Below, piece after piece: positions 5,055 through 36,821 of a stretch of 37,297 nucleotides of DNA (the stretch's first letter is position 1; every line of letters begins with the position of its first letter). The position numbers and the translations under genes were made by a program. The DNA lies in the NCBI GenBank assembly GCA_015486105.1, contig WFSI01000034.1:1-37297 (forward strand), given 5' to 3'. The notes beneath the pieces are model-generated. The model had not been told where the DNA came from and did no database searches. It saw only the letters and a program-made list of their open reading frames with translations. Source of the DNA: Aquificota bacterium. GTDB lineage: Bacteria > Thermosulfidibacterota > Thermosulfidibacteria > Thermosulfidibacterales > B14-G1.

Positions 5055-7250
5055 ATGAAACTGGGTCCCCACGCTTTAAGGATTCTAGAGAAGCGGTATC
5101 TGCTGAAAGATCCCAAGGGAAGGCTGATAGAGTCCCCCCAAACACTCTTCCGAAGGGTGGCCCAGGCCATAGCGAAAGGGGAAAAGGAAACCCACAAGTG
5201 GGAAGAAGCCTTTTACAACATGATGACCCAACTCTTATTCCTCCCCAACAGTCCCTGCCTTATGAACGCAGGAACAAAGCTGGGTCAGCTAGCAGCCTGC
5301 TTTGTTTTACCCATAGAAGATTCCATGGAATCTATCTTTCAAACCTTAAAGGAAGCAGCTGTCATCCACAAGAGCGGGGGAGGAACGGGTTTTGATTTTT
5401 CCAAGCTCCGTCCCAGAGGGGATGTCGTGAAGTCCACCGCTGGGGTTTCCAGCGGCCCTGTCTCTTTTATCAAAGTCTTCGACGCCGCCACAGAAGAGAT
5501 AAAACAGGGAGGCAAAAGGAGGGGAGCCAACATGGCTGTACTCTCTGGAAACCACCCCGATATCATGGAATTCATAAGGGCCAAAGAGAGACCGGGTCAC
5601 CTGCCCAACTTCAACCTCTCAGTAGCTCTGGATCAAACCTTTATGGAGGCCTTGGAAGAAGCTAAGGACTATCCCCTAAGAAACCCCAGAAACGGCCAAG
5701 TAGTAAGACGCCTCTCGGCCTTGGAGGTCTTCTCCCTCATTTCCCGTATGGCATGGAAGGGCGGAGAACCGGGCATCCTCTTCTTAGACAGGGTAAACGC
5801 CTTCAATCCTACCCCTTCCCTGGGCAAAATAGAGAGCACCAACCCCTGCGGCGAGCAACCCCTCCTTCCCTATGAGAGCTGTGTTTTAGGCTCCATAAAT
5901 CTATCCGCCATGATCCAAAACGGGTCTATCGACTGGGACCTACTCAAAGATACTGTAGAAAAAGGAACAAGGTTCCTGGACAACATGATAGAGGTAAACC
6001 TCTATCCTCTATCTCCCATAAGAAAAAGAACCCTTCTCACTCGAAAGATAGGCTTGGGAGTTATGGGTTTTGCAGACATGCTCATAAAATTAGGAATTCC
6101 CTACGCCTCCGCCCAGGCCCAAGAAATAGCCAAAAAAGTGATGGCCTTCATCCAGTTCCATTCCAAAAAGACCTCTGTAGTCTTAGCCCGGGAAAGAGGA
6201 GCATTCCCCCTTTACCCAGAGAGCATTTATAATCAGAGTAATCTGCAATCTCTCCTCAACATCTCCGAAACCCCCCACCTTCCCTGGGACTCTCTAATAG
6301 AAGAGATAAAAAAGGAAGGTATCCGAAACGCCACTACCACCACCATCGCTCCCACAGGAACCATTAGCCTAATTGCAGGGGTTTCCAGTGGCATAGAGCC
6401 ACTCTTTGCTTTAGCTTACAGGAGAAGGATGATGGGAGAAACCCTGGAGTACGTGCATCCCTTAGCACAAAGAATACTGGAAAACCTGGATAAAGATCTC
6501 TGGGAAAAGGTAGTGGAAGAAGGAAATCTGGAAAAGACTCCCCTGGACCCCTCTCTTAAAAACCTTTTGGCCACAGCCTACGAGATCCCCCCTGAGACCC
6601 ATGTGGAGATGCAGGCCGCCTTCCAGCTCTTCACGGACAATGCCGTATCCAAAACCGTTAATTTACCCCATAATGCCACGCCCCAGGACGTAGAAGAAGT
6701 ATACAGACTCGCCTACAAAAAGGGGTGCAAGGGTATCACTGCCTTCAGGGACAGAAGCCGGGAACAGGTGGTGGTAACGGGAAGAAAAGAGGAGGACTTA
6801 AGACCCCGATCAAGGCCCCAGGTAACTCGGGGAGCCACATGGAAAATCCTCACGGGCTGTGGCAATCTATACGTCACCATCAATGAAGACCAACACGGTT
6901 TATGCGAGGTTTTCTCCCAAATGGGAAAGACAGGGGGCTGCGCCGCTTCCCAACTGGAAGCCACCAGCCGGCTAATATCCTTAGCTCTCAGGTCAGGCAT
7001 ATCAATAAATGCTCTCCTCAAACAGCTTCAAGGTATCAGGTGTCCCATGCCTTCCTGGGATCAGGGAGAACAGATCCTCTCCTGCTCCGATGCCATAGCC
7101 AAGGCTATAATACGCCACCTAAGGCTAACCAAAGGGGAGGGGAAAAAGAGATTCAGGGGTCACGGAGGGGTATGCCCGGAATGCGGTCACCTTCTCATAA
7201 CGGAGGAGGGATGCATCAGTTGCCCCTTCTGTGGTTACTCTCCCTGTTGA
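5055..7250 (+). CDS. nrdJ: Adenosylcobalamin-dependent (class II) ribonucleoside-diphosphate reductase
   Basis: The 731-residue protein reduces ribonucleotides to deoxyribonucleotides using adenosylcobalamin, with no oxygen requirement. It shows NSPCLMNAG at 65-73, the redox cysteine C82 (AACFVLP), GGGTGFDFSKLRP at 108-120, and the catalytic block NPCGE at 263-267 with thiyl cysteine C265 and redox partner C276, eleven residues on as in Thermotoga NrdJ. PTGTIS and the C-terminal TSCPD-like domain (about 590-700) follow. The tail CPECG...CISCPFCGYSPC is a cysteine-rich knuckle for re-reduction or zinc. The SD AAGGAGGAG sits just before the ATG. The last 35 bp overlap the oppositely transcribed DUF2520 gene. 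It requires B12, which fits an anaerobe. Confidence 0.96.
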   Translation: MKLGPHALRILEKRYLLKDPKGRLIESPQTLFRRVAQAIAKGEKETHKWEEAFYNMMTQLLFLPNSPCLMNAGTKLGQLAACFVLPIEDSMESIFQTLKEAAVIHKSGGGTGFDFSKLRPRGDVVKSTAGVSSGPVSFIKVFDAATEEIKQGGKRRGANMAVLSGNHPDIMEFIRAKERPGHLPNFNLSVALDQTFMEALEEAKDYPLRNPRNGQVVRRLSALEVFSLISRMAWKGGEPGILFLDRVNAFNPTPSLGKIESTNPCGEQPLLPYESCVLGSINLSAMIQNGSIDWDLLKDTVEKGTRFLDNMIEVNLYPLSPIRKRTLLTRKIGLGVMGFADMLIKLGIPYASAQAQEIAKKVMAFIQFHSKKTSVVLARERGAFPLYPESIYNQSNLQSLLNISETPHLPWDSLIEEIKKEGIRNATTTTIAPTGTISLIAGVSSGIEPLFALAYRRRMMGETLEYVHPLAQRILENLDKDLWEKVVEEGNLEKTPLDPSLKNLLATAYEIPPETHVEMQAAFQLFTDNAVSKTVNLPHNATPQDVEEVYRLAYKKGCKGITAFRDRSREQVVVTGRKEEDLRPRSRPQVTRGATWKILTGCGNLYVTINEDQHGLCEVFSQMGKTGGCAASQLEATSRLISLALRSGISINALLKQLQGIRCPMPSWDQGEQILSCSDAIAKAIIRHLRLTKGEGKKRFRGHGGVCPECGHLLITEEGCISCPFCGYSPC

Positions 7251-22516: not shown

Positions 22517-23374
22517 TTGAGAAACCTCCTTCACAAGATAAACTTGAGGTTGGACGCCACCCATAAATTGGGAGAAGAAAGGGAAGGTAAAAGGCGAAGC
22601 AGGGTCTACCTCCTTATAGGAATAATAGCCCTCTTGGGGCTCACCCTGGCTATCTACAAGATCTTAGGCTACCGGGCTGTAGAAAAGATAGAGGTTAAGA
22701 TTGTACAACACCGTGGTCAAACCTTGGAAAAGAAAAGACCTCTGATCTCAGCAAAAACCCAAACTAAACCCCCACCCTCAGCCTCGCTTCCATCCCAGCC
22801 AACTCCAAAGGAAGAGATGAAAATGACAACCCAGCCACCGGGGATAAAGAAGAAAGAAGGAAAGAAAGTCATCACAGTACTCCCCAAAACCTTTCAGGAA
22901 ACTCCCAAACCAACCCCCACCAAAGAAAAAATGCTTCCTCCCGAAAAGACCTTAGAGATAGCCATTTTCCCAGGGAAAACCCCTGGTCGGGTGATGGTGC
23001 TTTTGAAGAGTAAGGGTATAAAAACCCGAAAAGAAAAGAGAAAGACCACTGTGGATCTCTATCGGGTAGTAGTAGCTTCAACAGGAAAAAACCTTGCCAA
23101 AAAGCTGAAAGAGAAAACCGGGATCTTCCCCTGGAGACTTAAGAAGGACGGGAAAACCTACCTGGTGATAGCCTCTCTGATGAATGAAAAAGAGGCTCAA
23201 AAAATGATGAGAATGTTAAAAAGATTAAGGTTCTCACCACAAATCCTCACAGCCCAGAGGGATTTGAGTGTAAATGCCTTGGTTTTTTCTCTCAAAGAAA
23301 AATCTTGGGAAAACATGGAGCCCCAGTTGGAAAAAAGGGGAGCTCATACCTTAGAAATAAAAGCCCTGGAGTAA
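22517..23374 (+). CDS. Single-pass membrane protein with C-terminal SPOR-like region
   Basis: The 285-residue protein has a cytoplasmic start of about 29 residues, one transmembrane helix at about 30-50, a long Pro/Lys/Thr-rich linker (about 70-150) and a C-terminal region (about 160-265). The latter contains YRVVVASTGKNLAKKLKEK...TYLVIASLMNEKEAQKMM and resembles SPOR domains that bind denuded peptidoglycan, although divergent. The topology, N-in with an extracytoplasmic domain, fits a division or envelope protein. The TTG start immediately follows the stop of the EF-G-like gene, with GGGAG upstream. Its 3' end overlaps the convergent radical SAM gene by 31 bp. SPOR identity is inference. Confidence 0.65.
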   Translation: MRNLLHKINLRLDATHKLGEEREGKRRSRVYLLIGIIALLGLTLAIYKILGYRAVEKIEVKIVQHRGQTLEKKRPLISAKTQTKPPPSASLPSQPTPKEEMKMTTQPPGIKKKEGKKVITVLPKTFQETPKPTPTKEKMLPPEKTLEIAIFPGKTPGRVMVLLKSKGIKTRKEKRKTTVDLYRVVVASTGKNLAKKLKEKTGIFPWRLKKDGKTYLVIASLMNEKEAQKMMRMLKRLRFSPQILTAQRDLSVNALVFSLKEKSWENMEPQLEKRGAHTLEIKALE

Positions 23375-24996
23375 AGAGCTTCCTTTTCCCAGCCCGTGTC
23401 CACCACCTCCCAGGGAAAGGGCTCATGCCGATCCCTTGTCCTGTGAATATGATAGTAAAAACTTACGTTATGGGTCTTCAGTGCCCCATTCCAATCCCCC
23501 CCCATATCCAAAGAAGCTACCAAGGCCTCTCCCACCCTCCTGTCCCCCTTGGATATAAGCCCCTGTAACAAGGACCACTTGGGTCCCTCTCCCGTTACCA
23601 CTACCCCTTTAACCCTTCTAAGGTCTGATTCCACTTTACGTATCTTAGCCCTCAATACATCCCTGGTCTCCATGGGAGACCACTGGAAAGGAGTATGAGG
23701 CTTAGAAACAAAGGGGGCCAAGCTGAGATGAATCTGGGGCAGAGGAAGCCCTCTCATCCTGCATTGATGAAACACCCCTTTGGGAAAAACCGATAGGGCC
23801 TCCACATCATCATACTTCTCCCCTGGCAGCCCTATCATAAAATAGAGTTTCAAGATCTGGGCTCCCTGCTCCACACAGAAAAGTAACCTATCCATAAGCA
23901 ACTCCTGGGAAAGAGGCTTACCGACAGCCTTTCTCAATTCCTCCCCAGCCGCTTCTATCCCAAAGGTTCCCCGCTTGCTCTGGCCACAAACAGTCTTTAA
24001 AACCGCCAAAGGCGCATCCAATCTCAATGAGGAAAAGCTCACATCCTTCCCCAAAGAGAGGGCTTTATCCACAACCTCAACCAGATAGGGATAATGTGAG
24101 AGGGATGTGCCTATAAACCCCACCTTGGAAAAAGGCACATCCAAGGAGCTCAAAAGTCTCTTCTTATCCACCATTCTTAGGGGACGATAAAGATAGGCGG
24201 AAAGGCAAAACTTACATAGATAAGGGCACCCCCTACTTACCTCTAGGAGAAAGGCCTGGGGAAAAGCACCATAAGGTGTTACCAAAGACGACTGGTTACC
24301 CTTTTGGGAGAATCCCTGCCAATAAGCCCACTTTACAGGAAAAGGAGCATCCCCCCGGACTTCAAAGCGCAAAAAGCGACCAAAGTGATCGTATTTAGGA
24401 TTATAGAAAGATGGAACATACACACCTGGAATCCAGGCTAATCGGGATAGAAGTCGACGAGTTCTTCCAATACCTTCCTCCTTCAAGACTTTGAGGACAC
24501 GAGGTAACACCTCCTCACCCTCTCCCACTACTATAACATCAGCCAAAGGGGCAAAGGGTTCAGGATTGGCCGAGGGGACTATACCACCCATAATCACTAA
24601 AGGATCCTCCTCCCTTCGAAGGGAAGCCAGGGGCTCTACCCTGGACCAGTGCAACAGCCTGATCACATTCAAGAGGTCTAATTCGAAACTGATAGAGAAA
24701 GCCAACACAGGAAACTCCCTGGGAGAAGCCTTGACCTCCATGGAAACCAACTCCTCTCCCCTTTCAATAAGGGGAATTAAATGGGGCTCGGGCAGGAAAC
24801 ACCGGTCACAGGAAACGCCTCCAATAGCATTAGCCAACCGGTAAATGGTCTGGAATCCCATGTTGGCCATACCCACCCGATAGATGTTAGGAAAAAACAG
24901 GAGCATAGAAAGATCCCACCCTTGGGAACAGAGAGGGGCACCCTTCTCCTTCTCCAGAAGACAGTCCCAAGTGGCAGCCAAAGCCTTACAGATCAA
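23344..24996 (-). CDS. Radical SAM protein with B12-binding-like N-terminal region
   Basis: The 550-residue protein has an N-terminal region (about 20-200) resembling the B12-binding-type domain: [23 protein letters not shown] and [14 protein letters not shown]. The radical SAM core follows, with CPYLCKFC (CxxxCxxC at about 257, 261, 264) and glycine-rich strands. The C-terminus PWEVVDTGW...SRAFI matches a family of uncharacterised radical SAM proteins I recall (TIGR03960-like). I chose TTG at 24994-24996: it overlaps the ftsZ stop as TTGA and has AAAGGATGG upstream, while EKEKG...NIYRVGM just after it looks conserved. It follows ftsZ in the cell-wall cluster. The product is unknown. Confidence 0.8.
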
Positions 24997-26129
24997 TGCC
25001 CATCCTTTTCCAGGATCCTCTGGATGATAGGTGGAAGATCCTCTAAATCCCCCCACTCCTCCAATAGAAACCTCTCCTCTTTATCTCTCTCTTCTCGGGT
25101 TGCCTGAGAATCTGGAGAGGAAGTAGCCTCTACCACTTCCCTTTCCTGAACCACCACCTCTGAAAATTCCTCTGTGAAACCCGTAGCTATCACCGTCACC
25201 CTTACCTCTTCTTCCACCCTCTCATCCACCACAGCCCCAAAGATAATATTGGCCTCCTCATGGGCAGCCTCGTAAATCACCACCGCCGCATCCCTCACTT
25301 CTGTAAGACTCAGATCAGACCCACCAGTGATATTGATGAGCACTCCCCTGGCCCCATCCACCTTTACGTCCTCTAAAAGGGGACTGGAAACGGCCCCCAA
25401 AGCTGCCTTTCTGGCCCTGTCTTCCCCAACGGCAACAGCCGTTCCCATGAGGGCAACACCCCGGCCTTCCATGATGGTCTTCACATCGGCGAAATCCACA
25501 TTCACCAAACCTGGAACGGTGATGATGTCAGATATACCTTGGACACCTTGGCGAAGAACGTCATCGGCTATCTTAAAGGCGTCCCTCATACTGGTACTTT
25601 CATCCACCACCTGAAAGAGCCTTTCATTGGGAATGGTGATAAGGGTATCTACATGACCCTTTAACTCAGAGAGACCCTCATCGGCGTTTCTCATCCTCTG
25701 CCTTCCCTCAAAGAGAAAAGGCTTAGTCACCACAGCTACAGTGAGGGCTCCCACATCTTTAGACACCTGAGCAACTATAGGTGCAGCACCAGTTCCTGTT
25801 CCACCTCCCATACCCGCTGTCACAAAAACCATGTCAGCCCCTACCAATGCCTCCTTGACCCTGTCCACCTCCTCCTCCGCAGCCCTTCTGCCCACATCAG
25901 GATGGGCACCAGCCCCTAGACCTTTAGTTACCTTGGAGCCTATGTGGACCTTAAGGGGGGCCTTGCACCTATTCAGGGCCTGGGCATCTGTGTTAATGGC
26001 TATGAACTCTACCCCTTGAAGGCCATGTTCTATCATGTTGTCTACAGCATTCCCGCCAGCTCCCCCCACACCAACTACTTTCAATACCGCTCCTCGCATC
26101 AAATCCTCATCCAAAGTGATAAGGGGCAT
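24993..26129 (-). CDS. ftsZ: Cell division protein FtsZ
   Basis: The 378-residue tubulin homologue polymerises into the division ring. Visible are [16 protein letters not shown], the GTP-binding signature [10 protein letters not shown] at 108-117, and the T7 synergy-loop region [11 protein letters not shown] at about 209-219. A linker of about 50 residues ends in the conserved C-terminal peptide [12 protein letters not shown], the docking site for FtsA, ZipA and similar partners. The SD AAGGAGGTGGGGAT precedes the ATG, and ddl ends only 12 bp upstream, so ftsQ and ftsA are not in their usual place. Its stop overlaps the next gene's TTG. Confidence 0.98.
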
Positions 26130-30512: not shown

Positions 30513-30541
30513 AAAAAAGGGCCTCCCTAAAGGGGAGACCC
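30513..30541 (-). terminator. Strong intrinsic terminator of the acyl-CoA ligase gene
   Basis: On the minus strand GGGTCTCCC, a 5-base loop and GGGAGGCCC form a 9-bp stem (one G-U pair), followed at once by T6 (complement of 30513-30518). It lies 23 bp after the ligase stop and separates the ligase from the murG cluster. Confidence 0.85.
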
Positions 30542-30563
30542 CGGCATAAAATCCGTCAAAGGA

Positions 30564-32240
30564 TCAAGAAATTTTAATAGTGGGATATTTCTCCTCCTTG
30601 TCCCACTCCTTCAGTATCCTGCGCAAAAGTTTCCCAGTAGGAGTCCTGGGAAGCTGATCACAGAAGGCCACAGCCCTTGGCAGCTTATAGATAGCAATAT
30701 ATTCTTTGCAGAACTCCACCAGTTCTTTGGCCATATCTTCAGATGGAGAATGACCCTCTTTAAGAATGATATAGGCTTTGGTGATCTCTCCCTTGAGAGG
30801 ATCCGGAGAGCCAATGACACCAGCATCGGCCACAGCAGAGTTCTTCTTGAGGGCATCCTCAACCTCAGAGGGTCCGATGCGGTAACCAGAACTCTTTATC
30901 ATATCGGACTCCCTGGAAACGAAAAAGATGTATCCTTCCTCATCCGTGTAAACGGCATCGCCAAGTTTAGCCCGTCCTTCTAAAACAGACTCCTTCTGAG
31001 TCTTAAGGAGACGCTCGTTATCAGCGTACGGCTTCCAATAAAGGGGACCAGTGGGACCCACAACGGTGAGTTTCCCTACATCCCCAGATTTACATTCATT
31101 GCCATTTTCATCCAGAACTTTAATATCGAAGCCAGGAACAGGGATACCAATGGACCCGGCCCTAGGCTTCATGTTCACGGCATTAGAGGTTATAAGGTGA
31201 ACCATTTCTGTAGCACCCAAACCCTCATAGATGTACTGCCCAGTCTTCTCATACCAAGCGTTAAAGGTCTCTACACCAAGGGCGTCTCCCCCCGTGGTAG
31301 ACATCCTCAAGGAGCTGAGATCATACTTGTCAAGGTCGGGGAAGCGCAGCAGCGCCCTGTAGGCCGTGGGCAAGCCGGTGAGAACGGTGACCTTGTGCTT
31401 TTGAATGGTTTCCAAAAGTACATCGGGAGCAAACTTCCCTATGAGACATACCGTGGCTCCACCGTAAAATGGAATAAGGGCAAAGGTCCCAAAACCCGCT
31501 GCAAAGGAGACAGGAGCTGAGCCACCCAGAATATCTCCTTCCACCAATCTCCATACGTACTTGTTAACCAAATAACTCTCGCACAGAAGCTCCTTGACAA
31601 AATGAATGCAGCCCTTGGGAGGTCCCGTAGTCCCAGAAGTATAAAGGAGTACCCCCACATCATCAAGGCCAACGTTCTCTGTAAATAGCTTTCCACTGCC
31701 CTTCTCCAGGAGACCAGCATAAGAGAGGTACCCTTTGGCTTCCCAATCTTTGGGAGATCCCCCCACTACTATAACATTCTCAGTAAATTTGAAGCTGTCC
31801 TTGGCCTTCTCCACTTCCCCAATAAGAGGCGCAGAAACAAAGATATACTTGGCCTCTGCGTTGTTTAGGGTAAAAGCTATCTCGTCCTTGCTCCAGAGGG
31901 GAGACATGGGTACAGGAATAGCACCCAGCCTCATAATGGCAAAAATGGTGGCCAGAGCTTCAGGACAGTTAACCATACGGATAGCCACCCTGTCCTGCTT
32001 CTCCACACCCTGCTCAGCAAGGCTACTAGCAACACGGCAAGAAGCCTCCTGAAGCTCAGTATAACTCGTGAATTTTTCACCAAAAATAACTGCTGTCCTC
32101 TTCCCCCTTCCCCCGTCTATATGCCTGTCCAAAAGAACATAAGCTAAATTGGTGTTATCGGGAATAATAAACTCATCGGGAAAGGTGTATTGGGGCCAGT
32201 ATTCCTTAGGCGGGAAGTAATTCTCGGGTATCTTAGCCAT
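30564..32240 (-). CDS. Acyl/aryl-CoA ligase (AMP-forming, benzoate-CoA-ligase-like)
   Basis: The 558-residue ANL-superfamily enzyme would activate a carboxylic acid with ATP and CoA through an acyl-adenylate. Motifs are LLYTSGTTGPPKGC at about 198-211, YEGLGATEM (A5) at about 336-344, DMIKSSGYRIGPSEVE (A8), and the catalytic lysine in RTPTGKLLRR near the C-terminus. Overall appearance (PENYFPPKEYWP start, PMSPLWSKDEI) resembles benzoate or 2-aminobenzoate-CoA ligases, but the substrate is not readable. I chose ATG 32240 because AGGAGGTG is six bases upstream. It is divergent from the U32 operon, with a shared inverted repeat between them, and ends in a strong terminator. Confidence 0.88.
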   Translation of the reverse strand: MAKIPENYFPPKEYWPQYTFPDEFIIPDNTNLAYVLLDRHIDGGRGKRTAVIFGEKFTSYTELQEASCRVASSLAEQGVEKQDRVAIRMVNCPEALATIFAIMRLGAIPVPMSPLWSKDEIAFTLNNAEAKYIFVSAPLIGEVEKAKDSFKFTENVIVVGGSPKDWEAKGYLSYAGLLEKGSGKLFTENVGLDDVGVLLYTSGTTGPPKGCIHFVKELLCESYLVNKYVWRLVEGDILGGSAPVSFAAGFGTFALIPFYGGATVCLIGKFAPDVLLETIQKHKVTVLTGLPTAYRALLRFPDLDKYDLSSLRMSTTGGDALGVETFNAWYEKTGQYIYEGLGATEMVHLITSNAVNMKPRAGSIGIPVPGFDIKVLDENGNECKSGDVGKLTVVGPTGPLYWKPYADNERLLKTQKESVLEGRAKLGDAVYTDEEGYIFFVSRESDMIKSSGYRIGPSEVEDALKKNSAVADAGVIGSPDPLKGEITKAYIILKEGHSPSEDMAKELVEFCKEYIAIYKLPRAVAFCDQLPRTPTGKLLRRILKEWDKEEKYPTIKIS

Positions 32241-32291
32241 GATGCACCTCCTAAAAAACTTTCTGAGATTTTTGTGTTGCAAACCAGGTTT

Positions 32292-32362
32292 GGGGTAGCA
32301 CATTGTGTTTGTGGTGTCAAGGTCTCAAAGGCTTGACGGGAGGCCCCTTAGGCCCATATAGA
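32292..32362. promoter_or_regulatory. Divergent promoter region with dyad between ligase and U32 operon
   Basis: Minus strand: TTGACA (32315-32320) with only a poor -10 (TACCCC at 17 bp). Plus strand: TTGACG (32333-32338), 18-bp spacer, TATAGA (32357-32362). GTCAAG (32316-32321) and CTTGAC (32332-32337) form an inverted repeat with a 10-bp spacer linking the two -35 elements, so one regulator could control both directions. The weak -10 on the ligase side suggests activator dependence. Confidence 0.4.
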
Positions 32363-32387
32363 AAGTAAAGATCCAGGGGGAAAAGTT

Positions 32388-33242
32388 ATGTCAGTTCTGG
32401 ATAAAAGATACGAGATAATTGTCCCTTGCAGCCATATCGAACAGCTTCCCTGCATCCTCAACATGGACGTAGATGCCCTCTACTTTGGAATAAGGGGATG
32501 GAGCCGATCCAATAGAGAGCTGGAGTTCTCCATTTTCCAAGTGGAGGAGCTCTGTCGAAGAAGCCATGGCAAGGGCAAAAAGGTCCTTTTAAGCTTCAAC
32601 CTTATGCCTAGTCCCATGGAAGTGGAGCAAGCCTGGATCACCCTAAGGGAAGTCCTGCTAAAAGGGATAGACGGGGTTATCTGCAGCGACCCTTCCCTAG
32701 CCATGCGAATCAGAGACAGCTTCCCCCAAACGGAGGTCCACGCCAGCTTAGGCACTCTCATCCTCTCCTCAGAAGAGGCACTTTTCTGGGGCGATATAGG
32801 CGTAAAAAGGATAGTCCTATCTCCCCATCTCACCCTTGAAGAAATCCAGGAACTATCCCTCTGCCTCTCCCACCGAGGAATAGAAACCGAGGTAATGCTC
32901 TTTGGAGTCAGATGCCAGGCTACCCTCTTAGGCATTTGCAGGATGAGCAGCTATTTTGATATGAACCTGGAAAATTCGGGTTTGAGAACAGTGATCTGGT
33001 CAGGAAGCTCGAAAAGGAGCGGCGTCTGTTATCGCACCTGCGCCCAAGAGTGGAAGGAGGTTTCAGGAAGAGAATGGGTGTGGTCTCCCCAGGTCTACTG
33101 GGACATAGAAAAGCTACCTGCTCTCCTTCAATCAGGGGTAAAGGCCTTCAAGATAGGATCCAGGGGTATGGATTGGGAGAGGTTAAACACTCTGGTAAAA
33201 GCTCTACGGGAAAAAATGAGGGAAGAGGAGAGTTATGTTTGA
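32388..33242 (+). CDS. U32-family protein A, likely 4Fe-4S
   Basis: The 284-residue protein matches the peptidase U32 family, whose studied members (UbiU/UbiV, RlhA, TrhP) are Fe-S proteins of oxygen-independent hydroxylation rather than peptidases. The TIM-barrel-like body shows DALYFGIRGWSR, VLLSFNLMPSP, VHASLGTLILSSEEALFW and IGVKRIVLSPHLTLEEI. Four cysteines are placed like a U32 cluster: C176 and C184 in the VRCQATLLGICRMS block, then C214 and C218 in RSGVCYRTC. It is shorter than TrhP and lacks C-terminal additions. It starts the six-gene operon and overlaps the next gene by 8 bp. Its substrate is unknown. Confidence 0.8.
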   Translation: MSVLDKRYEIIVPCSHIEQLPCILNMDVDALYFGIRGWSRSNRELEFSIFQVEELCRRSHGKGKKVLLSFNLMPSPMEVEQAWITLREVLLKGIDGVICSDPSLAMRIRDSFPQTEVHASLGTLILSSEEALFWGDIGVKRIVLSPHLTLEEIQELSLCLSHRGIETEVMLFGVRCQATLLGICRMSSYFDMNLENSGLRTVIWSGSSKRSGVCYRTCAQEWKEVSGREWVWSPQVYWDIEKLPALLQSGVKAFKIGSRGMDWERLNTLVKALREKMREEESYV

Positions 33243-34191
33243 GCTGAGTACCCATATACCTACCATGGAAATACTGAAAGAAACGGACATCTCTTCTTAC
33301 CATACCCTGTACTTGGGAGACCCCACCTGCCCCTATGTCCCAGGCAATATCTCTTACCATCCGGACCTCTTGAAAGAAGCCTTATATCTGGCTAAGGAAC
33401 AGGGAAAGGAGTGCTACCTTAGCCTCTATGCCGAGCCCCGGAACAAAGATCTCCCCTGGATAGAAAAGCTTTTGGAAGCTGCTTCCTCCCTACCCTTGGA
33501 CGGCATCGAAGTTCACAATCTGGGTTTAGTAAGGCTTATAAAAAGGATGAACATGCCCTTCCCCATCCACTTAGGGGTCTTTGCTAACCTCTATACCCAC
33601 GAAACGGCAAAGCTCCTTTATGGAATGGGAGTGAATAGGGTCTTTCCCAATCCAGAACTCTCCTTAGAAGAAATCAATTATATAAGGACCCACGCACCCA
33701 CCCAAGTCACCCTCCAAATCCACGGAAAAATCCCATTAGGCATCTCTGAAGGCTGTTTCATCTTGGAGCATCGACAAGGAACCTGCGAAGAGCTTTGTTT
33801 CAAACCCCACTGGCTGACCTCAGGCAAATGGACATTAAAAAACATAGGCCGGGCCACGGTCAGTGGGAGAGACCTCTGTCTCATAGAATACCTGGGATCC
33901 CTGTATTGGAGAGGCTTTAGAACCTTCTATATTCAAACCCTCAGGGAATCCAAAAGATACATTGAAACTATAGGCACCATTTATAGAGAGGCCTTAGAAA
34001 GGATAGGCCAAGGTATTGACGATTATATTGACCCTTCATCCATAGGGCTTATGTACGAACTCTCCCCTTATGGCTTCTGCAATGGATACCTCTTTAGGAG
34101 ATCAGGTCATCGCTATATTGGCCGGCTCTTCGGGGGAGAGAGGATCAGTCCTTTGGAAGTCCCCAAGGAGGAATGGAGTTATGGAGAATAA
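33235..34191 (+). CDS. U32-family protein B, UbiV-like cysteine pattern
   Basis: The 318-residue protein is a divergent U32 protein. It lacks the C-x6-C pair of its neighbours but has C32 (GDPTCPY) and then C174, C184 and C188 (EGC...GTCEELC). As I recall, UbiV binds its 4Fe-4S cluster with C39, C180, C193 and C197, a similar arrangement of one early and three late cysteines. Other U32-like pieces are LDGIEVHNLGLVRLIKR, PIHLGVFANLYTHETAKLLYGMGVNRV and LSLEEINYI. The ATG overlaps the previous gene by 8 bp with a GGAAGAGGAG SD, and its end overlaps the next gene by 11 bp. UbiV-like is a comparison, not a claim that it makes ubiquinone. Confidence 0.75.
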   Translation: MFELSTHIPTMEILKETDISSYHTLYLGDPTCPYVPGNISYHPDLLKEALYLAKEQGKECYLSLYAEPRNKDLPWIEKLLEAASSLPLDGIEVHNLGLVRLIKRMNMPFPIHLGVFANLYTHETAKLLYGMGVNRVFPNPELSLEEINYIRTHAPTQVTLQIHGKIPLGISEGCFILEHRQGTCEELCFKPHWLTSGKWTLKNIGRATVSGRDLCLIEYLGSLYWRGFRTFYIQTLRESKRYIETIGTIYREALERIGQGIDDYIDPSSIGLMYELSPYGFCNGYLFRRSGHRYIGRLFGGERISPLEVPKEEWSYGE

Positions 34192-35140
34192 AGTCTCTTT
34201 ATTGGCCCCGGGGGGAAGCCCCGAGATGGCCCAGGCGGCCTTTTTAGCCGGAGCTGATGCCGTCTATGTAGGGGCCTTAGGCTGGAGCAGAAGGACAGCT
34301 CGGTATGAACTTCCCGACCAAGATATTGGGGCCATCAATCAATTGGCCAAAGAAATGGGGAAGGGGGTGAGGGTAGCCCTCAATACCAACTTCTCCCCCT
34401 TAGAGATGGACCTATTCCTAAAAAAGGTAGAACGCTTTGCCCAATGGGGTGTTCATGGGCTTATCCTCACTGATCCAGGGGCTATGTTTTTAGTTAAAGA
34501 AAGTTTCCCTCAATTAGAGGTCCACGTGAGTGCAGGAGCCAACGCCATCAACCTGGAGGATCTTCGTTTTTACAGAGAGATTGGGGTAGACATGGTGGTA
34601 GCCCCATGCAACCTCACTGTAGAAGAGATCACCGAAATCAAAAGGTACGTGGATGTTGGCATCGAAGTGTTCCTCCACTCCAACACATGCTTCACCTACT
34701 TGGGGAAATGCCTCATGTCCAGCTATTTCAGGTATCAATGGCATCGGGACCAAGAAGGAAAAAATCACTTTTGGGGATCCCCCAATAGAGGGGGCTACTG
34801 CCACAGGGTGTGCAAAGCCCAATGGTCCATGGAAAAAGGAGACCCGGTCCTTCTCAAGAACGACATGTTCCTGGCCTTCTCCAACATACCCCGTTACTTA
34901 GAAGCTGGGGTAGACTGCCTAAAAATACAAGGAAGGGAATACTCTATAGACCTCATAAGCGACATTGTGTCCTTCTACAGAAGTCTTTTGGACGAGCTAA
35001 CCCAACAAGGAAAGGAAGTGGACATGGCTGCCTATCTCACTCAGCTCGAGGAAATCTCCATGAAAAGAGATGCCCAGAGAAACAGCAGAACCCACACGGT
35101 CCTTCAAGAAGTAGTGGAAGAAATCCCCTTACCGTTATAG
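34181..35140 (+). CDS. U32-family protein C, likely 4Fe-4S
   Basis: The 319-residue protein begins VSLLAPGGSPEMAQAAFLAGADAVYVG, the typical U32 start, and has GVRVALNTNFSP, VHVSAGANAINLEDLRFYREIG and LTVEEITEIKRY. Cysteines C170 and C177 (NTCFTYLGKCLMSSYF) and C207 and C211 (RGGYCHRVCKAQW) give C-x6-C-x29-C-x3-C, the pattern also seen in protein A. A conserved CLKIQGREYS strand follows. I chose ATG 34181, with AAGGAGG at 34165-34171, over an in-frame ATG at 34070 that lies within gene B. It overlaps gene B by 11 bp. Proteins A and C are paralogues; B is more distant. Confidence 0.85.
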   Translation: MENKVSLLAPGGSPEMAQAAFLAGADAVYVGALGWSRRTARYELPDQDIGAINQLAKEMGKGVRVALNTNFSPLEMDLFLKKVERFAQWGVHGLILTDPGAMFLVKESFPQLEVHVSAGANAINLEDLRFYREIGVDMVVAPCNLTVEEITEIKRYVDVGIEVFLHSNTCFTYLGKCLMSSYFRYQWHRDQEGKNHFWGSPNRGGYCHRVCKAQWSMEKGDPVLLKNDMFLAFSNIPRYLEAGVDCLKIQGREYSIDLISDIVSFYRSLLDELTQQGKEVDMAAYLTQLEEISMKRDAQRNSRTHTVLQEVVEEIPLPL

Positions 35141-35156
35141 CCAGTGGGTATGGCCC

Positions 35157-35558
35157 GTGGCTTTTGAAATAAGTCTTAGGGTGAGGTTTGGAGATACAGA
35201 CCCCTATGGGGTTATGTACTTTGCCTCCTTTTTTAAGTATGCCCATCAGGCTTTAGAAGATTACCTCAGATATAAGGGCATGTCCCCGGAAGAATTCTTC
35301 AAAAACCCCGATAGAAACCTGGGCATGCCTGTAATAGCTGCAGGAGGAAAATTCAAGAAGCCCGTCAAGTATGGAGAAGAAGTAAAGCTGAAGGTATCGC
35401 CCGCCCACAGGGGGACATCCTCCATCACATTCCACGTGGAATTTTGGCAAAGTAAAGGTTTTTGCGGTAGTGTAGATTTAGTGCTGGTAGCCATAGACCG
35501 ATCATGGGCTACCAGAAGGCTACCACCTGAACTCGAAGCCTTGGAGGTGGAGGATTGA
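35157..35558 (+). CDS. Hotdog-fold acyl-CoA thioesterase (4HBT/YbgC type)
   Basis: The 133-residue protein begins ISLRVRFGDTDPYGVMYFASFFKYAHQALEDYL, the signature of 4-hydroxybenzoyl-CoA and YbgC thioesterases, with Asp15 in DTD as the expected catalytic residue. It would release CoA from an acyl-CoA. The start is GTG 35157; the nearby ATG at 35150 is in another frame and hits a stop at once. It lies 16 bp after U32 protein C, and its TGA overlaps the TTG of the next gene (TTGA). With a CoA ligase divergent to the operon, one enzyme could load and the other remove CoA from the same substrate. Substrate not known. Confidence 0.85.
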   Translation: MAFEISLRVRFGDTDPYGVMYFASFFKYAHQALEDYLRYKGMSPEEFFKNPDRNLGMPVIAAGGKFKKPVKYGEEVKLKVSPAHRGTSSITFHVEFWQSKGFCGSVDLVLVAIDRSWATRRLPPELEALEVED

Positions 35559-36409
35559 AAAAAACGGGTATCTTTTATCATCCTTCCTTCAGCCGCAAAA
35601 GCTATATGACCGTGGGAAATCGCCTCGCTGACTTCCCAGAAGCATTAGACCCCCTTTTAGAGAAAAAGGGGGAAAGGCTGGTTTTATTTGAGTGCAAACC
35701 GGTAAAGGAAGAACTGGTCCTCAAAATCCATACCCGAGAAATGGTAGAAATGGTGAGGAGAGACCCCTTCTGCTCTACCGCCTTCTACTCGGTAGGAGGG
35801 GTAGTGGAAGCATCCGAGAAGATAATGGAAGAGCATATCACCAATGCCTTCTGTTTCATAGGAGCAGGGGGGCACCACGCAGGGAGAAACTACTTCTGGG
35901 GAGCCTGCTGTCTCAACGATGTGGTGCTATCCATTGTGAACATGAGAGAAAAGAAACTAGCTAACAGATTCGCCATACTGGACACCGACGCCCATCACGG
36001 AGATGGTACCAGGGAACTAATTATGAATGATCCAGACATCCTCCACCTCTGCCTCTGTGACAGAGATTGGGAAAGCCCAGATGGAACCAAGGCGGATCTT
36101 GATGTCACAGAGGTCTATTACGGGGGCAGCCCCGACCAAGTCTATCTATCCATAGTAGAGAAGGCTTTAGAAAAAGTAGAAACATGGCAACCCGACCTCT
36201 TTTTCTGGTACTTCGGTTTTGACACCTGTTCAGGAGACTATGGAAGTTTAGGGTTGAGCAGAACAACCTATCTACAAATATGCAAGAGGTGCAAAGAAAC
36301 TGCCTACGCCTGTCAAGACAAACTCCAAGTAGTCTTAGCTGGGGGAGCGGTAAGAGAGACAGCCACCTGGCTCTTGCCCAAAATTATCTGGATCTTGGCT
36401 GAGGACTAA
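35555..36409 (+). CDS. HDAC-fold amidohydrolase-like protein
   Basis: The 284-residue protein resembles histone deacetylase/acetylpolyamine amidohydrolase proteins, zinc enzymes that cleave acyl-amide bonds. The active-site histidine pair is in GAGGHHAGRNYFWG (H107, H108). Expected zinc ligands are D145 and H147 in LDTDAHHGDGT and D223 in FGFDTCSGDYG. The usual GGY or GGGGY loop with the catalytic tyrosine reads LAGGAVRETATW, with Ala265 at the Tyr position, so catalysis may be altered or another group used. It is shorter than many bacterial homologues (over 300 residues). The start is TTG overlapping the thioesterase stop, with a GGAGGTGGAGG SD. The gene is well coupled within the operon. 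Confidence 0.8.
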   Translation: MKKTGIFYHPSFSRKSYMTVGNRLADFPEALDPLLEKKGERLVLFECKPVKEELVLKIHTREMVEMVRRDPFCSTAFYSVGGVVEASEKIMEEHITNAFCFIGAGGHHAGRNYFWGACCLNDVVLSIVNMREKKLANRFAILDTDAHHGDGTRELIMNDPDILHLCLCDRDWESPDGTKADLDVTEVYYGGSPDQVYLSIVEKALEKVETWQPDLFFWYFGFDTCSGDYGSLGLSRTTYLQICKRCKETAYACQDKLQVVLAGGAVRETATWLLPKIIWILAED

Positions 36410-36410
36410 A

Positions 36411-36821
36411 ATGAAAATATCCAAAAAAGTTATCTTAGAATTTCCAAAGCATACCTGGGATCAACCTGTAATTTACACCCTCCATTCCAAGTATCATCTC
36501 ATGTTCAACATTCTTAAAGCCAAAGTTACCCCCAAATCAGAAGGCCTTATGATCTTAGAGCTTTCCGGAAACAAGGAGGACTTTGAAAAGGGGATAGAAT
36601 TCCTCAAAGAAATGGGGGTAAGGGTAAGATACCTGGCCGCCGATATCACCAGAGACGAAGAGGAATGCACCCACTGCGGCGCCTGTACTGCCATCTGCCC
36701 CACCCAGGCCCTTCACATAGATAGGGGAAGCATGGAGGTTATTTTCGACAAAGAGAAGTGCATCGGCTGCGAGTTATGCGTTTCTGTATGCCCCTTTAGA
36801 GCTATAGAACTCAAATTCTAA
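36411..36821 (+). CDS. NIL-domain 2x[4Fe-4S] ferredoxin
   Basis: The 136-residue protein has an N-terminal NIL domain (about 1-75, ferredoxin-like small-ligand or accessory fold) and a bacterial-type ferredoxin domain. CTHCGACTAICP and CIGCELCVSVCP each hold four cysteines for one 4Fe-4S cluster. It starts one base after the HDAC-fold gene and ends the operon. In methanogens a similar NIL-ferredoxin (MA1822) works with a DUF39 protein in homocysteine formation; no DUF39 gene is seen here, so that role is not supported. It is a natural electron carrier for the Fe-S U32 proteins upstream, by inference. Confidence 0.9.
   Translation: MKISKKVILEFPKHTWDQPVIYTLHSKYHLMFNILKAKVTPKSEGLMILELSGNKEDFEKGIEFLKEMGVRVRYLAADITRDEEECTHCGACTAICPTQALHIDRGSMEVIFDKEKCIGCELCVSVCPFRAIELKF

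Follow-up and report, generated by a model that had tools for sequence, protein, structure and literature searches.

Proteins of the U32 family that carry an iron-sulfur (Fe-S) cluster are known from oxygen-independent hydroxylations: UbiU/UbiV, TrhP and RlhA all act in a prephenate-dependent manner (PMC11574389). For UbiU/UbiV, hydroxylation of the ubiquinone ring is the only known job (PMC6747719). The U32 oxidases described so far act on either ubiquinone precursors or RNA bases, by a chemistry that has yet to be solved. Here we analyzed a locus of seven genes in DNA from an Aquificota bacterium (assembly GCA_015486105.1, contig WFSI01000034.1, positions 1 to 37,297; this whole stretch of 37,297 nucleotides is called the window). 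Six co-directional genes on the plus strand encode, in this order, three U32 proteins (U32A, U32B and U32C, or A, B and C), a thioesterase, an HDAC-fold protein and a NIL-ferredoxin, and the gene of a coenzyme A (CoA) ligase lies opposite to them on the minus strand. We propose, at somewhat below even confidence, that the locus encodes an undescribed O2-independent pathway in which a complex of the U32 proteins hydroxylates a CoA-activated, probably aromatic acid. To our knowledge, this gene set has not been described. In the open-licence literature, we found no description of the ligase, U32, thioesterase, HDAC and ferredoxin set, and no experiment on any member. Anaerobic benzene activation, for which the published 'Magic' cluster contains an AMP-binding protein, was also considered; the 'Magic' papers mention no U32 protein. 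The seven genes were identified from open reading frames (ORFs) and Pfam at 30564-36821:

30564..32240, minus strand: aryl-type AMP-forming acyl-CoA ligase, 558 amino acids (PF00501 1.1e-77, and PF13193)
32388..33242, plus strand: U32A, UbiU-like U32 protein (PF01136 5.5e-26; Cys176/184/214/218)
33235..34191, plus strand: U32B, UbiV-like U32 protein (PF01136 4.9e-27; Cys32/174/184/188)
34181..35140, plus strand: U32C, UbiU-like U32 protein, ATG start at 34181 (PF01136 1.3e-43; Cys170/177/207/211)
35157..35558, plus strand: hotdog-fold thioesterase of 4HBT/YbgC type, GTG start (PF13279 3.4e-11, PF03061 1.9e-9; syntenic in relatives)
35555..36409, plus strand: HDAC-fold metallohydrolase without the catalytic tyrosine, TTG start (PF00850 4.8e-34; fold match to HDACs)
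36411..36821, plus strand: NIL-domain dicluster ferredoxin (PF09383 6.1e-16, Fer4 8.6e-18; syntenic in relatives)

Measured from the ORFs, A and B overlap by 8 base pairs (bp), B and C by 11 bp, and the thioesterase and HDAC genes by 4 bp; the gaps are 16 bp between C and the thioesterase gene and 1 bp between the HDAC and NIL-ferredoxin genes. A preliminary description of the locus had given identical overlaps and gaps, and its seven genes, their positions and their families were confirmed with Pfam. It had also proposed to search for conserved co-occurrence of the seven genes across anaerobes, and had named a loss of linkage in related genomes as contrary to its proposal. In related genomes, those of the window's order, all seven stay together where contigs cover them; across phyla, only the ligase and the three U32 proteins do so.

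For the comparison within the order we used the window's own genome (G000) and eight relatives; all other genomes mentioned below share only the domain with it. The seven genes were found together, in identical order and orientation, in G001, G002 and G008. In G003, G004, G005 and G006 the gene order was as in the window for the parts covered by contigs, the contig of G004 ending early, with ligase-A-B present. No U32 protein, and none of the seven genes, was found in G007 (71% complete). A, B and C were the only U32 proteins found in G000. The arrangement is not a product of chance, as the same order occurs throughout the window's order and partly in two other phyla.

A search of genome contigs for related loci gave none but those of the window's own relatives. 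Outside the order, the HDAC profile gave one strong match among 386 genomes sampled across families, namely in G080 (390 bits). The phylum of G080 consists of three species and carries U32A-B-C, the orthologous ligase and also the HDAC. In G080 itself, A, B and C are consecutive; after them come a 4HBT-fold thioesterase, two genes that we take, from our own reading of their sequences, to be coaE and a MoxR-type gene, and the HDAC, which shows 52% identity to that of the window. The orthologous ligase (58%) is located about 10 kilobases (kb) from U32C on the opposite strand. The U32B profile detected further orthologues in G350, a congener of G080, and in a further phylum, which we tentatively call NC10-like, as a lead only. 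This phylum has two U32 cassettes: (i) B-C-C-NMT1-C-PPDK-like without ligase, and (ii) A-B-C preceded, on the same strand, by the ligase. The ligase was present in 16 of the 21 genomes with cassette (ii), and in 12 of the 21 it was upstream, on the same strand and within 10 kb; the 12 include G405, where only the ligase tail is seen at a contig end. Among NC10-like genomes without cassette (ii), 13 of 74 had the ligase (one-sided Fisher test against 16/21, p ~1e-6, uncorrected for relatedness).

As to cassette (i), three NC10-like loci (L116, L152 and L153) encode, in conserved order, U32B-C-C, an NMT1/TauA-like protein, a further C and a PPDK_N/PEP-utilizer protein of 854-898 amino acids. This cassette may represent another U32 pathway, one that includes a step of aryl-phosphate type.

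Because A-B-C are accompanied by an orthologous ligase in two phyla besides that of the window, the core that is conserved across three phyla is the ligase and the three U32 proteins; the thioesterase, the HDAC and the ferredoxin are lineage additions. The NIL-ferredoxin was seen in the window's order only, and no search for it was made elsewhere in G080 or in the NC10-like genomes. The same partners are found divergent, distant on opposite strands, or co-directional, which argues for shared function of the ligase and the U32 proteins rather than inherited position alone. The most serious alternative starts from this core. According to it, the pathway comprises the ligase and the U32 proteins alone, whereas the thioesterase, the HDAC-like protein and the ferredoxin only share the transcript and have other tasks, such as control of acyl-lysine or of the CoA pool. 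The NC10-like cassettes have none of the three, and the thioesterase of G080, although of 4HBT fold, is a different protein with no detectable BLAST match to that of the window. However, within the window's order the genes stay in one arrangement, and in G080, a member of another phylum, an HDAC with 52% identity is also located close to A-B-C. We consider this alternative unlikely.

All three U32 proteins exceeded the curated PF01136 cut-off of 22.4 bits (A 91.7, B 95.2, C 149.4). We analyzed their relationships in a tree of 68 sequences (IQ-TREE) with UbiU, UbiV, TrhP and RlhA of Escherichia coli as references. A and C with their homologues formed one clade (support 100/99) and B formed a separate one (100/99). 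The clade of B was sister to E. coli UbiV (99/97), on a very long branch, and TrhP and RlhA were placed apart from A, B and C. The main clades were the same in a FastTree of 124 rows. The NCBIfam equivalog cut-offs were missed by far: the UbiU model NF047963 scored 132.9 with C and 69.1 with A (cut-off 440), the UbiV model NF047965 scored 49.3 with B (cut-off 275), and the TrhP model gave at most 150 bits (cut-off 534). By these scores, therefore, A, B and C are to be regarded as relatives of UbiU/UbiV/TrhP and not as members.

The [4Fe-4S] ligands of the reference enzymes have been mapped by experiment (PMC6747719). In a joint alignment, the cysteines of A (176/184/214/218) and C (170/177/207/211) fell into the ligand columns of TrhP/RlhA. 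Those of B (Cys32/174/184/188) aligned with C39/C180/C193/C197 of UbiV, the far N-terminal cysteine included and the last one shifted by one column. The four cysteines were invariant in the full-length U32A, U32B and U32C of the window's order (A of G005 and B of G006 are truncated). Between the second and third cysteines, A and C have 13-14 residues more than TrhP/RlhA, which is a mark of the A+C subfamily. The trees and the cysteine columns support A, B and C as Fe-S-type U32 proteins that are UbiU/UbiV-like rather than RNA-hydroxylase-like. No U32 relative was obtained when PDB sequences were searched with U32C or with the profiles of U32B and U32C. The AlphaFold model of U32B was poor in the cluster region (mean predicted local distance difference test score, pLDDT, of 61.6; best PDB match U32 peptidase 5d88), and therefore we drew no conclusion about its pocket.

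The ligase fell into a clade (99% support) together with the ligases of G080 and NC10 and with a paralog from its own genome. This clade was apart from acetyl-CoA synthetase, 4-hydroxybutyrate-CoA ligase and the benzoate- and anthranilate-CoA ligases, the references in this tree being aligned stretches only. The pocket motif EGLGATEMVHL resembles STEMLHI and CTENFHI of benzoate- and anthranilate-CoA ligases, which favours an aromatic acid as the substrate. With the benzoate-CoA ligase subfamily model TIGR02262 the score was 293.7, below the cut-off of 375.25. The paralog (G000:C108:13470-15113; L168:8474-10138) shows 47% identity and a similar pocket motif, and has no U32 neighbours. The match at G000:C108:13470-15113 was reported to contain one TGA.

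The position of B as sister to UbiV, and weakly that of A and C by UbiU, would fit a second alternative, in which A-B-C replace UbiU/UbiV in the hydroxylation of an isoprenoid quinone or its precursor, with the ligase and the thioesterase in the ring-forming part of the route. The genome, however, encodes two PF02621 (MqnA/MqnD-type) proteins and a UbiA-family gene, which looks MqnP-like to us by eye. With the PF02621 pair, menaquinone synthesis by the futalosine route is probable, and this route requires neither a CoA ligase nor ring hydroxylation. This speaks against a MenE/MenI or ubiquinone-like role, and MenE/MenI roles of the ligase and the thioesterase were set aside because of these PF02621 proteins. 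Moreover, no UbiT-like SCP2 gene was found among the seven, and no quinone gene near the operon. A quinone function thus appears improbable to us.

The model of the HDAC-fold protein (pLDDT 78) matched HDAC structures. The metal ligands and the histidine pair are kept (H107, H108, D145, H147 and the aspartate of GFD). In all six copies whose C-terminus is intact, G080 included, Ala or Ser stands in place of the catalytic tyrosine after the GG motif; two control HDACs have the tyrosine at this position. Since the tyrosine is gone in all full-length copies, ordinary amide deacetylation is doubtful, and we set aside a role as AcuC or a standard deacetylase. In this respect the preliminary description, which had the HDAC-like protein handling an amide or acyl group, needs refinement. 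Its aryl-type CoA ligase is in agreement with the pocket motif, and its view of the U32 set as Fe-S proteins with the cysteine columns. Its pathway idea as a whole has partial support, the core now being the ligase and the three U32 proteins. In the trees, the U32 proteins did not group tightly with the proteins that hydroxylate transfer or ribosomal RNA, an outcome that it had named as contrary to its proposal.

In the proposed pathway, the ligase would convert a carboxylic acid, probably aromatic, to the CoA thioester. A and C (UbiU-like) and B (UbiV-like), with one [4Fe-4S] cluster each, would assemble into a complex that hydroxylates this thioester. The oxygen donor would most simply be prephenate, as for UbiU/UbiV and TrhP; a prephenate dehydratase is present in G000, so prephenate should be made. 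In the lineage of the window, the NIL-ferredoxin would supply electrons to the U32 complex, the 4HBT thioesterase would free the product, and the HDAC-fold protein without tyrosine would carry out or sense a further metal-dependent step. What the sequences themselves show is the gene content, the linkage of the ligase and the three U32 proteins in three phyla, the pattern of Fe-S ligands, the distance from U32 proteins that modify RNA, and the missing tyrosine of the HDAC. The hydroxylation itself, the CoA-bound and aromatic nature of the substrate, the oxygen donor, the route of the electrons and the order of the steps are what we infer here. A wider claim, that a U32 Fe-S complex of three subunits is the anaerobic counterpart of the aryl-CoA oxygenases and hydroxylates aryl-CoA thioesters in the absence of O2 in at least three phyla, is a tentative one and on the unlikely side.

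Several observations weigh against the proposed pathway. The placement of A and C beside E. coli UbiU was weakly supported (92/51). The NC10-like cassettes contain no thioesterase, HDAC or NIL-ferredoxin, and cassette (i) is entirely without ligase. The NC10-like ligases read EGLGTTEMMFV, with the histidine of the motif lost (TEMMF), which makes a common substrate less likely; theirs may be different or non-aromatic. In cassette (ii) of L092, L117, L139 and L161, A is without the first cysteine and C without the third (Asp instead), which suggests that cluster ligation is altered there. Finally, as the clade of the ligase has paralogs unlinked to U32 genes, the ligase need not serve the U32 proteins alone.

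The U32 complex may instead be reductive or otherwise non-hydroxylating, using low-potential electrons of the ferredoxin to remove a hydroxyl or to reduce a CoA-bound ring or double bond. The operon encodes a ferredoxin, U32 proteins have been discussed in terms of an IspH-like mechanism (PMC11574389), and with the longer Cys2-Cys3 loop of A and C (by 13-14 residues) their chemistry may differ. On the other hand, all U32 Fe-S proteins with a known reaction hydroxylate (PMC11574389), and the ferredoxin is outside the cross-phylum core, and we give a reductive complex little chance. That the three U32 proteins are the lineage's hydroxylases of transfer or ribosomal RNA, with the ligase, thioesterase and HDAC as bystanders or protein-acylation genes, would agree with the finding of no other U32 protein in the genome and with the commonness of TrhP-like proteins in other bacteria. 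It is nevertheless very improbable, as the trees separate A, B and C widely and with strong support from TrhP and RlhA, and as three phyla share the linkage to the CoA ligase.

Two further features were annotated at the locus:

30518..30542, minus strand: stem with a T run, located after the ligase gene and resembling an intrinsic terminator (pattern match only)
32241..32387, no strand: divergent intergenic region between the ligase gene and the operon, 147 bp

In the terminator scan of the region that gave the stem at 30542-30518, the total of such sites was not above that in shuffles. No match to a sigma-70-like consensus was found in 32241..32387. The ligase ORF of the preliminary description extends to 32303. 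The start is very probably 32240 (MAKIPENY...), because GGAGGTG precedes ATG GCT and conservation in relatives begins at MAKIPENY; the length of 147 bp follows from this start. Upstream of the seven genes there is a dcw cluster (murG, murC, murB, ddl, ftsZ), and downstream a PrxQ-type peroxiredoxin. In G232 (L118:408-6494), the ligase is likewise beside a dcw cluster (ftsQ-ftsA-ftsZ-yggS), which may be a coincidence. Elsewhere in the window, 5055-7250 encodes a class II (B12-dependent) ribonucleotide reductase, which fits a lifestyle independent of oxygen, and 23344-25056, adjoining ftsZ, a TIGR03960-type B12-binding radical SAM protein (282 against a cut-off of 462 bits). A comparison with PHROGs gave nothing informative.

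If the proposed pathway is true, it would add a third, operon-encoded class of U32 proteins that act on a soluble CoA-linked acid. Such a substrate would be convenient in vitro, and the U32 mechanism and oxygen donor would become directly testable. For vent bacteria and NC10-like relatives, it would also mean an additional way to hydroxylate small acids without oxygen.

Compared with known systems, the locus resembles UbiU-UbiV(-UbiT) in having U32 Fe-S proteins as unlike partners. B has the CXnC...CX3C pattern with a far N-terminal cysteine, as UbiV, and A and C share the first three ligand columns of UbiU. It differs in having three U32 proteins instead of two, no UbiT, and a link to a CoA ligase, a thioesterase, an HDAC and a ferredoxin; moreover, the spacing is CX6CX16CX38C in UbiU and CX6/7CX29CX3C in A and C. 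With TrhP/RlhA, A, B and C share the U32 fold family and the four cysteine columns, but they are found in separate clades and lack the C-terminal extra domains. The ligase has the AMP-forming fold and the pocket motif TExxH of benzoate- and anthranilate-CoA ligases (2v7b, 4wv3), but it belongs to its own clade (99%), below the TIGR02262 cut-off. Likewise, the HDAC-fold protein shares the fold and metal ligands of HDAC-like amidohydrolases (HDAC6 CD1, 9gz5), but has Ala or Ser in place of the catalytic tyrosine and a very short C-terminus.

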